In this document: piece after piece, positions 7,817 to 15,679 of the stretch
Position numbering within the stretch: the stretch's first letter is position 1
Layout: every line of letters starts with the position of its first letter
DNA from: Akkermansiaceae bacterium
GTDB taxonomy: Bacteria; Verrucomicrobiota; Verrucomicrobiia; Verrucomicrobiales; Akkermansiaceae
Direction of reading: 5' to 3'
Assembly: GCA_030725745.1 (NCBI GenBank)
Contig: JANRFH010000003.1
Location: 171,852-235,851, forward strand
Length of the DNA stretch: 64,000 bases
The notes under the pieces: generated by a model
Database searches by the model: none
The model's input: the letters and a program-made list of their open reading frames with translations, nothing else
Told to the model about the DNA's origin: nothing
Position numbers and translations under genes: made by a program

Positions 7817-8494
7817 GTGTCTCGTTTCGTAGAATTCAAGTATCTCCTCAGGAGGCAAGGCGTGGTGTTGGGACTAATCGCATTTCTGGCTGCGGTTCTA
7901 CTAGTTCAGACCTTCGCCAGCTACGATTTCACCCTGCGCTTCTCCGCCATGCCTGCTGAAATTGTCTCGGCATGGAATTCCATCCGTTCAGGAGTTTTCA
8001 CCGCTAGCGTGGGGGAGGAATTGCTCACTCTTCTCACCGCCGGGCTCCTCCATAGCGACATCGGCCACCTTTTGGGAAATATGCTGTTCCTATGGATCTT
8101 CGCTGCTGTCGCCTGCGAGCTGTTAGGATCGCGCTGGGTGGCGGCGGTCTTTATTTTCACGGCAATTACGGGCAATATCTGCCATGTTGCGATGAATCCA
8201 GAATCAACCGCCATTTGCCTCGGTGCCTCTGGAGCGGTGATGGGGTTTGAGGGGCTATATCTCGCGATGGCCGTCCGCTGGAGCTTGCCTGATCCGCATG
8301 TCCAGCCGATGGCGAGACCTGTGAATCCGGGAAGCCTCGCCGTCATCGGCATCATCAGCTTGGTATTCGATTTCAACGGCTACATCAGCGGCGGCGAATG
8401 TATCGCCTACGGAGCCCACCTCGGCGGCTTCATCGGTGGACTTTTCCTCGGCGGCTTCGTCGTCCCGATGCCACGAGTCGCCCTTCCGCGTTAG
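7817..8494 (+). CDS. Rhomboid family intramembrane serine protease
   Basis: Rhomboids cleave transmembrane substrates inside the membrane. This 225-residue protein has about six hydrophobic segments. HLLGN at residues 84-88 corresponds to the HxxxN region, the catalytic Ser138 lies in GASG, and His201 lies in YGAHLGGFIGG, so both dyad residues are present. Translation is assigned to GTG 7817 because no ATG lies upstream in frame. It stands 49 bp after modA on the same strand; no functional link is evident. Confidence 0.85.
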   Translation: MSRFVEFKYLLRRQGVVLGLIAFLAAVLLVQTFASYDFTLRFSAMPAEIVSAWNSIRSGVFTASVGEELLTLLTAGLLHSDIGHLLGNMLFLWIFAAVACELLGSRWVAAVFIFTAITGNICHVAMNPESTAICLGASGAVMGFEGLYLAMAVRWSLPDPHVQPMARPVNPGSLAVIGIISLVFDFNGYISGGECIAYGAHLGGFIGGLFLGGFVVPMPRVALPR

Positions 8495-8567
8495 TTCGCA
8501 GAGGATACGCGCAGTCTATCGCAAGCGGTGCGATGCGGGCTTTCCGCGTCTCTGCTCCACTCTGCGC

Positions 8568-8738
8568 GTGGACGCTCTTGCCATCACTATTCTCGTCAGC
8601 ACCTGCTTGGCCGCGATTTTCATCGTGTGCTTTGCAGCGGAGGCGCGGCGCGGGCGGCGTTCCAGCTTTGAGCGCGATTCATTACTCCCGCTCGATGACA
8701 CCCCGGCTCCAAAGCCACGCAAAATTTCCTCAAAATGA
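8568..8738 (+). CDS. Small membrane protein, possibly CcoS-like oxidase assembly factor
   Basis: A 56-residue single-pass protein from GTG 8568 (VDALAITILVSTCLAAIFIV...), with one N-terminal membrane helix and a basic, then acidic, cytoplasmic tail (RRGRRSSFERDSLLPLDDTP). The layout recalls the short CcoS-type proteins encoded beside cbb3 oxidase genes, and it overlaps the next gene by ATGA, whose N-terminus is CcoN. Sequence similarity to CcoS is only in pattern, so the name is tentative. It may be a leftover of a deleted cco operon. Confidence 0.5.
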   Translation: MDALAITILVSTCLAAIFIVCFAAEARRGRRSSFERDSLLPLDDTPAPKPRKISSK

Positions 8739-9427
8739 CTACGACCATCACCTACGACGACAAGACCGTCCGCCGTTTCATGAACGCCTCCATCTTCTGG
8801 GGCATTGTCGGCATGCTTGTCGGCCTCCTCGCCGCCACCCAGCTCTCATGGTGGCAGATGAACGGAAAATTCCTCGAAACCATCACCTTCGGGCTCTTCA
8901 AGGGCGAAGGCCTCGCTTACATCACCTTCGGCCGTATCCGCCCGCTCCACACAAACGCGGTCATCTTCGCCTTCGTCGGAAATATGGTTTTCGCGGGTGT
9001 TTATTACTCCACTCAGCGCCTGTGCAAATGCCGCACCGCCTCGGATCTCCTTTCCGCCATCATTAGCGATAACAGCGAGCCGGAAGCCGTGGCTCGTGCG
9101 CGAAACTTCATTGCAAAAAATCTCGAAGAGCCTCTCCCGCTCGCCCTCGTCGCACGCCACGCAGGCCTGAGCGAATCCCATTTCTGCCGCGTCTTCAAGG
9201 AAGCCACCGGCCTGACGCTCACCGATTACGTGAATCGACGCCGCATTGAGTGGGCGAAGAAAGAACTGCTCAAACCCGAGGTGCGAGTCTCTGAAATCGC
9301 CTTCCAGATTGGTTATCAATCACTCTCGCAATTCAACCGAAGCTTCTCACGGTTTACGGGGAATTCCCCCAGCAACTTCCGTCGCGAGGAGCTCGCCCGC
9401 GCCACGCCCGTGGGCGCGTGGAAATAA
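8735..9427 (+). CDS. Chimera: N-terminal CcoN segment fused to AraC-type DNA-binding domain
   Basis: Residues 1-107 are the start of cbb3 cytochrome oxidase subunit I: YDDKTVRRFMNASIFWGIVG, then FGRIRPLHTNAVIFAFVGN with a low-spin heme ligand candidate His72, then YYSTQRLCK. From about residue 115 to 220 the protein is an AraC/XylS C-terminal domain with both helix-turn-helix units (LALVARHAGLSESHFCRVFK and VSEIAFQIGYQSLSQFNRSF) and the PSNFRR end. The frame is open through the junction near nt 9050-9080. The remaining ten or so oxidase helices and ccoO/ccoP are absent. Predicted topology is two membrane helices with the DNA-binding domain in the cytoplasm. It could be a deletion fusion, a real membrane-tethered regulator, or an assembly join. 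Confidence 0.85.
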   Translation: MTTTITYDDKTVRRFMNASIFWGIVGMLVGLLAATQLSWWQMNGKFLETITFGLFKGEGLAYITFGRIRPLHTNAVIFAFVGNMVFAGVYYSTQRLCKCRTASDLLSAIISDNSEPEAVARARNFIAKNLEEPLPLALVARHAGLSESHFCRVFKEATGLTLTDYVNRRRIEWAKKELLKPEVRVSEIAFQIGYQSLSQFNRSFSRFTGNSPSNFRREELARATPVGAWK

Positions 9428-9493
9428 AACGGAAATTTTTTGCCCAGGGAAATATCCGTGAAAGATTGGCATGTAAGGTGCTGTATTACTTTT

Positions 9494-9561
9494 GGCGGTT
9501 CGACTGAAACACTTCGGGTTATTGGGTTTTCCCTGGGGTAGATCGGTCGAACCGCTTTTTT
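9494..9561 (+). terminator. Long-loop hairpin followed by T tract
   Basis: The arms GGCGGTTCGAC and GGTCGAACCGC pair and the right arm is followed directly by TTTTTT at 9556-9561. The loop is about 45 bases, long for a plain terminator, so this might also be the 3' end of a small RNA. It lies downstream of the chimeric gene. Confidence 0.55.
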
Positions 9562-9614
9562 GTGCCTGCGATTCGCATTTTATTTTCTGCAAGCTGCGGT
9601 AGGATGATGTGGAA

Positions 9615-9932: not shown

Positions 9933-9951
9933 GCTGTCAGAGGTCTTTCAT

Positions 9952-10150
9952 TATTCCGGAGGGATATCAGAAAGTAGCCGGGGGTCGAGCAAAGCGACTA
10001 CCCCCGGTTTGATGGCGCTAGAAAAGCGATCCTGATGGGATCGAACCGGCTCGCTGGCATCCCTCCGGGATACGATATGCTGACCGATTGAACCGTGGGT
10101 AGTCGCTACGCTCGACCCACGGCTACTGGCTTTAATCCCTATCGGGATAA
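9952..10150. repeat. Cluster of palindromic intergenic repeats
   Basis: At least two strong hairpins are visible. GTAGCCGGGGGTCG pairs with CGACTACCCCCGG around 9976-10008, and CCGTGGGTAGTCG pairs with CGACCCACGGCTAC around 10095-10127. The outer parts carry CCGGAGGGATA and ATCCCTCCGGGATA, which also pair. The two stems share the GTCGAGC-GCGACTA core, so they look like diverged copies of one REP-like element. Confidence 0.7.
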
Positions 10151-10165
10151 AGAGGTGGTTTGTTC

Positions 10166-12523
10166 TTAAACCACTGACCTCCCGATCATTAGCAGTCGCA
10201 GTCCGTTGAGGCAGACGATGACGGTGCTACCCTCATGACCGACAACGCCAATCGGAAGCGGTAGGGAAAATCCAAGGGCAGCGATGATGAGGAAAACGAT
10301 GATCCCGGCGGCGAAGGTGAGGTTCTGGATAAGGACGCGTTTCGCCCGACGCGAGTGACTCAGAAGGAGGGGGATATTTTCTAGACGGTCGCCCATGAGC
10401 ACGACGTCCGCTGTTTCCATCGCCACATCCGTGCCCGCCGCACCCATTGCGACGCTGAGGTCGGAGGCGGCGAGGGCGGGTGCGTCGTTTACTCCATCGC
10501 CTATCATCATGACGCGGCCTTCGGTTTTCAGTTGGCGGATGACTTCCAGCTTGTCGCCGGGAAGAAGGCCGGCGTGAACCTCGTCAATGCCCGCCTCGGC
10601 GGCGATGGTCTTCGCGACGAGCGATTGGTCGCCGGTGAGCATGACGACTTTTTTCACGCCGACTTTGTGGAGCTTGGCGGTGAGGTCTCGGGCTTCGGGG
10701 CGTATCGTATCCGCCATGGCAAAGACGGCGGTGGCGGTGACGCGGTCGCCATCGCGCGTGCCGAGCCAGACGCAGGTGCGGCCTTTTTCCTGAAGACCCT
10801 TCGTGAGCGAGTGGAGTGCATCGAAGCCCTCGGCATCATGCTCGCGGAACCAGCGCTCGCTACCGATGAGATGGCGTTGTCCTGAAATGGTTGCCTCCGC
10901 ACCTTTGCCAACTGTGGATTGGAAGGCAGTCGCCACAGGAAGTGAAAGGCCTGCCGCAGCGTTCACGATGGCGTGGGCGAGCGGGTGTTCGGATTTCGAT
11001 TCCAGGGCGGCGGCGAGGGCTAGAGTATCGTGGATGGCTGCTGGCAGTTCTTTAGTGACGTCCATCACGCCGTCAGTGGTGACGATCTCGTTTAGCGATG
11101 GCTTGCCTACGGTGAGAGTGCCGGTCTTGTCGACTGCTACGATATCTATAGTAGCTGCACGTTCGAGATGCGATCCTCCCTTGATGAGGATGCCGCGTCG
11201 TGCCGCGCCGCCGATGGCGGAGAGCACCGTGGCGGGAGTGCTGATGACCAGCGCGCAGGGCGATGCCACGACCATGATCGTCATCGCCCGGTAAAAGGCC
11301 GTGGAGAAGGTTTCGCCCCACAGGAGCCATGGCACGAGGAAGACTGCGATGGTGAAGAGGATCACGCCCATCGCATACCATTGCTCCGCCGTTTCCAGAA
11401 ACCGCTGGGTGGGGGATTTCTCCGCCTGCGCCTCGGCGACGAGCTTGACCATGCGGGCGAGCGCCGAGTCATCCGAGCGCTTCGTGACTTTCATTTCAAT
11501 GCCGCCGCTCTGGTTGATCGTGCCAGCGAAGAGATCGCTGCCCGTGCTTTTCGAGACCGGCATCGACTCGCCGGTGAGAGAGGATTCGTCGACATGCGTT
11601 TCCCCTTCGGAAAGCTTGCCGTCCACCGGGATCTGCTCGCCGGGTTTCACGACGACGGTTTCTCCGATTTCCAGTTCCTCTACGGGCACGCTCATCGTCT
11701 CGCCGTTGCGCTTCACCAGCGCCTTGTCGGGACGCAGGGTGAGGAGGGATTCGATGGCGCGGTGGGTGCGCTCCATGGCGTAGCGCTGGAGGACGTTTGA
11801 GAAACTGAAGAGGAACAGCAGCAGGGCTCCCTCGAAAGGCGCGCCGACAAGCGCCGCGCCGAGGGCGGCGAGCACCATGAGGACATCGATATCGAGGACT
11901 TTCTCGCGCAGCGAGGCGATGGCGGACTTCACGCCCTCCTGTCCGGCGAAAACGTAGGCTCCAAAATAGAGTCCGTGTGTCCACCAGCTAGTGCCGGAAA
12001 TTTTTTCCACAGCAAAGGCGGCGATGAGGAAAAGCAGGCCGAGCGCGCAGGAAATCTCCTCGTTCAGCTCGCCGGAGCGCAGGCGCTCGCCGAGGGATTT
12101 TTCCTGGGGTTTGCCGATCTCAAGCGGGCTGATCTGTGCACCGGATTTTTCCAGCCCGGCGACGACATCGCTTTCGGGCGCAACCGCCGAATCGAAGGTC
12201 AGGCACAGGACTTTGCCGATGTAGGTGGCGGTGGCGCGGCGCACGCCGGGGATTTTTCCGACGCGTTTCTCAAGCCGGAGCGCGCCTGCTTCGCAGCCGG
12301 TATTGGCGAGTCGGAAGCTAAGTTTTTTTAACTCCATCGCCACCTCACTGGCATCTTCCGAAGCTATTTTGCGCAGCTGCGACTCACTGATACGCTCAGG
12401 ATCGAACTCGATTTCCAGCCGCCCGTGTTCCGGATCCGCGCTCACGCCAACGATGCCTTCCTGCTCCGCGAGTTCGTGGATGGGCTCGCCGAGGAGGTCT
12501 AGATCGGGACGTTTTTCGTTCAT
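10166..12523 (-). CDS. P1B-type heavy-metal-translocating ATPase (Zn/Cd/Co class)
   Basis: A membrane pump that expels or moves soft or transition metal ions using ATP. The 785-residue protein has two ferredoxin-like HMA-type regions (about 1-65 and 68-132), TGES at 317-320, the metal-site SPC at 421-423, the phosphorylation motif DKTGTLT at 465-471, the SEHPLAHAI motif, and GDGVNDAPAL near the C-terminal side. The last helices carry NGLRLL and HEGSTVIV, features of the Zn/Cd P1B-2 group. The usual CxxC of the HMA domain is missing (only one Cys, in NTGCEAG). It is last in a minus-strand operon after lipoprotein and amidoligase genes. Confidence 0.88.
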   Translation of the reverse strand: MNEKRPDLDLLGEPIHELAEQEGIVGVSADPEHGRLEIEFDPERISESQLRKIASEDASEVAMELKKLSFRLANTGCEAGALRLEKRVGKIPGVRRATATYIGKVLCLTFDSAVAPESDVVAGLEKSGAQISPLEIGKPQEKSLGERLRSGELNEEISCALGLLFLIAAFAVEKISGTSWWTHGLYFGAYVFAGQEGVKSAIASLREKVLDIDVLMVLAALGAALVGAPFEGALLLFLFSFSNVLQRYAMERTHRAIESLLTLRPDKALVKRNGETMSVPVEELEIGETVVVKPGEQIPVDGKLSEGETHVDESSLTGESMPVSKSTGSDLFAGTINQSGGIEMKVTKRSDDSALARMVKLVAEAQAEKSPTQRFLETAEQWYAMGVILFTIAVFLVPWLLWGETFSTAFYRAMTIMVVASPCALVISTPATVLSAIGGAARRGILIKGGSHLERAATIDIVAVDKTGTLTVGKPSLNEIVTTDGVMDVTKELPAAIHDTLALAAALESKSEHPLAHAIVNAAAGLSLPVATAFQSTVGKGAEATISGQRHLIGSERWFREHDAEGFDALHSLTKGLQEKGRTCVWLGTRDGDRVTATAVFAMADTIRPEARDLTAKLHKVGVKKVVMLTGDQSLVAKTIAAEAGIDEVHAGLLPGDKLEVIRQLKTEGRVMMIGDGVNDAPALAASDLSVAMGAAGTDVAMETADVVLMGDRLENIPLLLSHSRRAKRVLIQNLTFAAGIIVFLIIAALGFSLPLPIGVVGHEGSTVIVCLNGLRLLMIGRSVV

Positions 12524-12574: not shown

Positions 12575-13642
12575 TTACTCTCCGGTGATTCCTTTCAAGC
12601 CGAGAAATTCCTCCGGCACTGGCTTGAGTTTGCCGCCGTTGTCCTTTGCCCAATCGAGGATGGCTGAGAAGAAGCTCGCCGCCTCGATGATCTTTTCGCT
12701 CTCCATCCAGACCGGGAAAATGCGGACTTCGAAGGTGTGTTTCCCGGACAGGGATTGCACCATGTTGAAGAGGTTGAAGTCGCAGTATTTGATGAGCTTG
12801 ACGGCGGAGAGTTTTTTCCGCGCCGCTTCCCAATCCAATTCGGTGAAGCCCTCTGAGGTGATGACCTCGAAGATTTCCACTGGCCAACGACCCAGCCGCC
12901 TGCAGTTCGGATTCGTTGCGAAGCGCTCGCGTATCGCATCGGAGTAGATGCCGAGGAAACGCACAAGATTCGCGAAAGTAGCAGCGGAGCACAACGGCGC
13001 CGCATCGAAATGGATGTGGATCGCGCCTTCCGCAGGGATGGTGAAACCCAGTTCGCGGGCGGGTGCGAGCAGGGCTTCGAGTTGCTCTAGATGATTTTCC
13101 GAAATGGGTGCGGAGACGAGTTCACAGGGTCTCTCGCGCTCTCCGGGAAGCGGTGCACCCATGGCAATTGGCGTGCCGTGATCATCGCCGACCCTATACA
13201 TGCCTCCCTGTCCCAGCTGCGGAGTGGAGCCGAAGAGTGCCGCCAGCGGATCGAGGACGGTTTCCAAAGGAGCACTCGCATCCATGTGGCGCATGCCGAG
13301 GCGAAGAAACCGAGCGTCATCACTGACGATCCTATACCATCCAGGAATGGGTGGGTGTGCCTGCTTGAGATCGTCCTGCAGCGTCAGGTCATCCACGCAT
13401 TGCGCGAGGATGTTTCCTTGGCTGTCCTCCACGAGGAAGCCCAAGGTCAGGTTCTCAAAAACGGGAGTGTTCGGGACTTTGCTCGGCTCTCCCTGCGGGT
13501 GAAAAAAGCGCCGCACCTTCCCGCCGAGACGGGAGGCGATGGCATCGGCCAGATCCTTCCGGCTTTTGCCGGGAGGAGCCATGAGCTCGATCTCAAGCCC
13601 GATTTTGCCGAGGGCGGCCTTCGGCGAATTTTCGTGGTTCAC
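12575..13642 (-). CDS. Putative amidoligase (COOH-NH2 ligase family)
   Basis: A 355-residue cytoplasmic protein with the layout of amidoligases, glutamine-synthetase-fold enzymes that form amide bonds between a carboxylate and an amine. Visible motifs are the opening GKIGLEIELM (metal/ATP acidic strand), CELVSAPISENHLEQLE, AIHIHFDAAP, and the C-terminal FEVRIFPVWME, which supplies another Glu/Arg pair. The start is GTG 13642, overlapping the stop of the upstream lipoprotein gene (GTGA), so the two are probably translated together. Substrate unknown: peptide tagging, cell-wall or gamma-glutamyl modification are possibilities. Confidence 0.72.
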   Translation of the reverse strand: MNHENSPKAALGKIGLEIELMAPPGKSRKDLADAIASRLGGKVRRFFHPQGEPSKVPNTPVFENLTLGFLVEDSQGNILAQCVDDLTLQDDLKQAHPPIPGWYRIVSDDARFLRLGMRHMDASAPLETVLDPLAALFGSTPQLGQGGMYRVGDDHGTPIAMGAPLPGERERPCELVSAPISENHLEQLEALLAPARELGFTIPAEGAIHIHFDAAPLCSAATFANLVRFLGIYSDAIRERFATNPNCRRLGRWPVEIFEVITSEGFTELDWEAARKKLSAVKLIKYCDFNLFNMVQSLSGKHTFEVRIFPVWMESEKIIEAASFFSAILDWAKDNGGKLKPVPEEFLGLKGITGE

Positions 13643-15571: not shown

Positions 15572-15573
15572 GG

Positions 15574-15667
15574 AAAGGAACCGCGATTCCGAAATCGCGA
15601 CCTGCACGGCGAATAGCCTTAGTCCTCCGCTGCGGTGGTAGTCGCGATTTCAAATCGCGGTTCCTTT
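15574..15667. repeat. 94-bp foldback repeat, copy 1
   Basis: The ends AAAGGAACCGCGATT and AATCGCGGTTCCTTT are exact inverse copies, and inside them CGAAATCGCGAC pairs with GTCGCGATTTC. A small CCGCTGCGG hairpin sits in the middle. The element starts 2 bp after the menB stop and is the same length as copy 2 at 15975-16068, with only a handful of differences. Confidence 0.85.
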
Positions 15668-15679
15668 CGCCATCATTCC

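Follow-up and report, generated by a model that had tools for sequence, protein, structure and literature searches.

The question raised by this locus is how an open reading frame that begins as a subunit of a respiratory oxidase comes to end as a transcriptional regulator, and whether its product would do anything in the cell. The frame lies at positions 8735-9427 on the + strand of the window, by which we mean the whole 64,000-nucleotide stretch of Akkermansiaceae DNA that was analysed, and in the open-reading-frame list it starts with ATG and encodes 230 amino acids with no internal stop. Pfam and NCBIfam profiles revealed an in-frame ccoN'-'araC fusion. Its CcoN half (residues 1-109, 8735-9061) matched COX1 (PF00115) over residues 11-105 with 51.8 bits against a cut-off of 34.8, and NCBIfam ccoN (TIGR00780) over profile positions 2-91 of 474 with 68.1 bits against a cut-off of 583.15, such that the N-terminal end of the profile is all that is covered and the protein is not a full-length catalytic CcoN. 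The AraC half (residues 108-230, 9059-9427) matched HTH_18 (PF12833) over residues 140-217 with 86.2 bits against a cut-off of 33.6 and HTH_AraC (PF00165) with 63.2 bits in two stretches, the better at residues 127-167, which together form the double helix-turn-helix of the AraC/XylS family. The Pfam scan found no PocR domain (PF10114) in the frame, so that it lacks the N-terminal sensor of PocR-AraC regulators, a domain present in the parent regulators of two relatives of the same genus (G009 and G004). Judged by profile scores, each half's family match is far beyond chance, and the in-frame state of the join, taken alone, is a chance of about one in three. Hydrophobic stretches at residues ~14-39 and 71-93 and a histidine at position 72 complete the picture drawn by an earlier sequence-only reading, which had proposed an in-frame chimera of CcoN and AraC with two membrane helices and His72 and which is upheld by the single frame, by both profile collections and by the identities to G004 given below. 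No genes for the partner subunits CcoO and CcoP follow the frame; downstream come instead a gene for a small membrane protein and one for a P-type ATPase on the other strand.

G004, a genome of this genus assembled as one contig, holds the closest parents of both halves. The CcoN half is 98% identical to residues 1-109 of an 842-codon CcoNO frame there, and fusion residues 107-226 are 88% identical to the C-terminus of a 435-codon PocR-AraC regulator frame. At the nucleotide level (blastn), window positions 8498-9061 matched the G004 ccoN locus at 81.7% identity and positions 9055-9397 matched the G004 araC gene at 82.2%, and the two alignments overlap in a 7-bp stretch, CGCCATC (9055-9061, + strand), that is common to both parent genes. 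This overlap maps the join, which had been placed at about 9050-9080 from the sequence alone. On the left, the ccoN-locus match begins at the fourth base past the stop codon of a rhomboid gene, and the region from there to the fusion start (8498-8734, + strand) aligns with the sequence 5' of ccoN in G004 and eight relatives; we regard it as the upstream region of a lost cco cluster. It contains a conserved stretch at ~8498-8567, presumed to be the promoter region, and a short open reading frame of 56 amino acids that runs from a GTG at 8568 to a stop at 8738, overlapping the ATG of the fusion, and that is, by its position, putatively CcoS-like. The upstream stretch and the short frame also lie 5' of ccoN in all eight relatives aligned, and the translation of the short frame was matched in 86 of 91 loci that carry the CcoN half (own-genome loci and duplicates counted).

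Gene order in relatives revealed that in some of them a single cbb3-oxidase cluster begins with one parent, ccoN, and ends with the other, araC. In G009 the cluster runs on one strand from ccoNO through a FixP-type ccoP, a FixG/CcoG-type gene, a DsbD_2 protein and a CcoI-like P-type ATPase with a metal-binding domain to a PocR-AraC gene (Pfam), and the 522-aa frame in the relatives' cluster is FixG/CcoG-like. Six of the 72 other genus genomes (G009, G043, G044, G065, G070 and G081) hold ccoN and araC on the same strand of one contig, 8.6-8.8 kb apart from start to start. A named genome collection gave the same arrangement, with intact ccoN frames and the parents 8.3-9.7 kb apart, at no fewer than seven of 78 loci, four of which (L087, L092, L094 and L097) are contigs of G044, G043, G065 and G081, so that the two sets overlap; at least one of the 78 has the two genes on opposite strands. 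Counts of loci with both parents are lower bounds, as many of the 78 end at a contig end or at the 10-kb flank; 39 carried the CcoN half alone and 31 the AraC half alone, with AraC-half matches below 55% identity excluded, and three short CcoN frames (L095, L100 and L127) simply run off their contigs. Elsewhere the cluster is in two pieces, as in G004, G064 and G080: ccoNOP and the araC gene lie ~524 kb apart on the single contig of G004, the parents are separate on one contig of G064, and they are on different contigs in G080 and G005. A PocR-AraC homologue also stands at the end of or beside the cco cluster in G025, G026 and G032, which belong to other families of the order (an example of such a cluster is L044:3055-12175), the PocR domain itself having been scanned in G009 and G004. 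This neighbourhood across families suggests that the homologue may be an undescribed regulator of this oxidase, and a literature search combining PocR domain, AraC and cytochrome found nothing.

For the rest of this cluster, the window's own genome gave no close match. The assembly, which may be a metagenome bin, comprises 57 contigs at 95% completeness, such that ~5% of the genome may be missing. When the ccoNOP region of G004 was compared with it at the DNA level, the only match to cco genes was the fusion locus, the other two matches (765 bp on contig C41 and 62 bp on C6) lying beyond ccoP. The ccoG-to-araC region of G004 matched at 9055-9397 and otherwise only in 22 short stretches (27-107 bp each), almost all of them aligning to a single 116-bp segment of that region, and the PocR sensor part of the G004 regulator had no match in a search run without a positive control. 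The rest of ccoN, ccoO and ccoP and the N-terminus of araC thus have no close match in this genome at the DNA level, a level at which distant copies of ccoP, ccoG and ccoI could escape, and a complete cco operon with an intact araC gene, the finding named at the outset as one that would refute the chimera, was not seen at the locus. With the CcoNO protein of G004 as query, the fusion was recovered at 98% and the remaining matches were distant oxidases at 28-39%. These include a divergent cbb3-like set of CcoN-, CcoO- and CcoP-like genes on contig C2 (17925-19774) and a divergent CcoN-like gene on C15 (31929-33930), where a CcoO-like match also lies, all well below the NCBIfam cut-offs, as well as an aa3-type CoxA oxidase on C15, also below its cut-off. 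A total loss of cbb3-type respiration is rejected by the distant genes kept on C2 and C15; as the assembly reads, the genome is without this cco cluster, not without all oxidases.

The site at which the fusion sits is itself informative. Its left neighbour is a gene for a rhomboid-family membrane protein (7817-8494, + strand; Pfam Rhomboid, 75.6 bits), and its right neighbour is a conserved hairpin element (9492-9562, + strand; 91.5 bits with a covariance model of which the window is one of five sources). In at least six relatives the interval from the 3' end of the rhomboid gene to the hairpin is 47 bp (G005, G008, G040, G052 and G085) or 44 bp (G084), against 1000 bp in the window, and the chimera therefore constitutes a net insertion of ~950 bp. 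The interval is filled by a different stretch in G080, and in G004 the rhomboid gene and the hairpin are far apart. Among 200 loci, a rhomboid gene accompanied a CcoN half or an AraC half (at 55% identity or more) at own-genome loci only, and the upstream neighbour of ccoN is common to G004, G005 and G080 and differs from the one in the window.

The hairpin belongs to a larger family. The element (window 9457-9565 and loci L193-L200) is a hairpin of 70 nt whose apical loop is conserved and of the GGTTAATGGGTTTT(T)CC type, often with a T-run behind it; the model, built from five sequences with the window among them, found matches in 72 of the 73 genomes of the genus, counting its five sources, at 1 to 15 copies per genome, with four copies in tandem in G068:C125, and Rfam gave no match to the hairpin in the window. 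An alignment of 22 rows (17 distinct) contains 8 pairs in which both partners change, and 1 of 500 shuffles reached this number, although the alignment was fitted to the structure and 7 of its 22 rows match sites already represented, on the reverse strand and with lower scores. Upstream of many copies stands TTGGCAYG...TGCT, whose GG-N10-GC spacing resembles, by eye, a sigma-54 promoter. The element is possibly a multi-copy small RNA family. Further along the window, a dispersed repeat at 9945-10157 has copies on C2, C17, C52, C13 and C16 at 71-87% identity and is partly palindromic, because several contigs match on both strands; a second dispersed repeat of ~100 bp (15572-15670) recurs, complete or in part, on many contigs of this genome and of relatives; and a putative amidoligase gene (Amidoligase_2, 65.6 bits; 12575-13642) adjoins a heavy-metal P-type ATPase gene (10166-12523) on the same strand.

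Searches for further examples returned none. Among 72 other genus genomes, no row joined CcoN and AraC (E <= 1e-30), and none did so among 385 other genomes sampled from the order (E <= 1e-50, with scoring limited to seven candidates per genome), a sample that includes genus members and overlaps the first. No joined halves were found at the 78 loci of the named collection, which derive from the best 80 of at least 543 confirmed stretches and from which the window's own record was possibly excluded. Within its own genome the fusion matched itself and seven AraC proteins, far more weakly, and among the literature matches listed no title concerned a CcoN-AraC fusion. A family of CcoN-AraC fusions is rejected on these samples: the search of the fusion and of each half against relatives, proposed together with the original observation, recovered the parents separately and the joined form nowhere else.

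Taken together, these comparisons argue that the frame is probably the scar of a lost and relocated cbb3-oxidase cluster, formed by recombination between short repeats. The ancestor would have carried the upstream region, the small frame, ccoNO, ccoP, ccoG, assembly genes, a ccoI-like gene and PocR-AraC on one strand, with the rhomboid gene on one side of the whole cluster and the hairpin element on the other. Two CGCCATC copies, one in ccoN and one just 5' of the araC helix-turn-helix, would then have recombined, deleting ~8 kb, presumably in a single and recent event, and joining ccoN codon 109 in frame to the araC DNA-binding domain. The 7-bp match at the join is short and could have a chance origin. 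Fusions made by deletion between the ends of an operon are a general phenomenon, and the present case resembles them in the short repeat at the join, in the middle genes that were not found and in the one-strand parents of some relatives; it differs in that the locus itself is also displaced relative to relatives. That ccoN was joined by deletion to an araC gene lying downstream had been named at the outset as an alternative to a genuine sensor, and this is now the best supported account, given the 8.3-9.7 kb linkage of the parents in relatives and the unmatched middle. Against it stands that the nearest relatives lack the ancestor it requires and hold the parents apart, so that same-strand parents and missing middle genes are found through some relatives and not through the nearest ones, and that the outer flanks are not those of the operon's ancestral locus, as the rhomboid gene adjoins neither parent in the loci examined from other genomes. 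The split parents in the nearest relatives and a rhomboid gene foreign to cco loci imply either that the cluster moved here or that the ~950 bp came in already put together as a mosaic.

The latter we consider unlikely. Repair or template switching would have placed two copied fragments between the rhomboid gene and the hairpin, one of ~560 bp with the upstream region and the start of ccoN and one of ~370 bp with the end of araC, the split originals being lost separately. Such an origin fits the separate places of the parents in the close relatives G004, G064 and G080, two insertion flanks that occur at neither parent's locus among the relatives' loci examined, and a net insertion of ~950 bp; yet it requires two donor fragments in matching order and orientation and the separate loss of both originals, whereas some members of the genus hold an unbroken cluster with its genes in this order and on one strand. 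It is quite improbable that the contig merely joins pieces not adjacent in the cell through an error of assembly or binning, for, fragmented and incomplete as the assembly is and confined to one genome as the fusion is, such an error would have to make three separate joins inside 1 kb, the middle one sharing only 7 bp when assembler overlaps are usually longer than that, while the outer order of rhomboid and hairpin recurs in the six or more relatives and G+C, taken in 1-kb windows between 7501 and 10000, stays at 0.55-0.59.

If the frame is a deletion scar, as we favour, its state of preservation bears on its age. The fusion shows no stop, frameshift or lost start. A tree of sdhA, menB and the P-type ATPase places the genome near G004, G080 and G005, with four nodes at support 60-76, and in that set of four the CcoN residues 1-109 carry 10 synonymous and 0 nonsynonymous private changes in the window, compared with 10/6 (synonymous/nonsynonymous) in G005, 8/4 in G080 and 3/0 in G004. 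The absence of private amino-acid changes indicates that the chimera is young or that this half is still constrained; if this branch is taken, roughly, to carry 0.15-0.30 synonymous changes per site, that absence limits neutral drift to less than ~4-8% of the branch. In the AraC half the private synonymous changes number 21 or 25, according to which comparison set is used, and the 6 private nonsynonymous site changes fall in codons 97, 105, 113 and 114 out of 114, with codons 113 and 114 accounting for four. Relative to G004, dN/dS is 0.031 for the CcoN half and 0.054 for the AraC half. The synonymous divergence from G004 is 0.46 for the CcoN half (8735-9061) and 1.16 for the AraC half (9059-9400). 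With the fusion found in one genome only, selection acting since the fusion would look the same as a very young scar.

What such a product would be can be outlined from its parts. If translated, it would be a two-helix membrane protein followed by an AraC DNA-binding domain without a sensor, and this domain would be cytoplasmic, because the known topology of CcoN places it on that side and because positive residues follow the second hydrophobic stretch. An AlphaFold model from the single sequence, with no alignment, had a mean pLDDT of 56.5: blocks 161-220 reached 74-90 and showed the helices that an AraC domain should have, the helices at 9-35 and 70-91 were poorly modelled, and residues 39-113, the junction included, were mostly below 50. 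Compared with CcoN/CcoNO of cbb3-type oxidases (TIGR00780, PRK14485, PF00115), the first 109 residues are nearly identical, the His72 segment included, but most of the protein and hence the active site is gone; compared with the PocR-AraC regulator of the cco cluster (PF10114 plus PF12833), the complete AraC double helix-turn-helix is kept, but two CcoN helices replace the PocR sensor. ToxR, TcpP and CadC are membrane-tethered one-component regulators, and the fusion would be like them in combining, in one chain, a membrane anchor and a cytoplasmic DNA-binding domain, a likeness seen at the level of sequence; it differs in its AraC-type domain, in its N-terminal two-helix membrane part, in having no periplasmic sensor and in its occurrence in one genome. 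The idea that the protein might sense heme or redox state through His72 found no support and is rejected, as the first 109 residues of CcoN alone remain and no second genome with the fusion was found in the samples searched; His72 is a putative heme ligand, and the later heme ligands of CcoN are presumably gone, so that a heme bound in this half would lack them.

The fusion most likely has no selected function yet, or at most binds weakly and constitutively at the regulator's former targets; a function is unproven and less likely than a scar. There is a slim chance that we are looking at a newborn regulator, a PocR-AraC protein that has exchanged its sensor for two CcoN helices and that, placed under the cco upstream region and perhaps expressed from it, would control its former targets and perhaps its own promoter. 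Slimmer still is the prospect that the fusion works, and is selected, as an AraC regulator tethered to the membrane and placed under the former cco upstream region. The intact frame, start codon, upstream stretch and DNA-binding domain would fit it, as would a CcoN half free of private amino-acid changes and an AraC half in which all six nonsynonymous changes are confined to the last 18 codons. Eight genus genomes, several of them incomplete, possess a close araC (66-85% identity) with no ccoN match (E <= 1e-30), from which it follows that the regulator may have other targets. The missing sensor and the lack of a second fusion genome in the samples searched weigh against such a role.

The locus is a clear case in which the loss of an operon would leave an enzyme fused in frame to the regulator of the same cluster. 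If the chimera is not functional, the comparison explains an odd open reading frame and cautions against annotating it as a sensor; if its product is made and works, it would represent the birth, in one step, of a membrane-tethered transcription factor.
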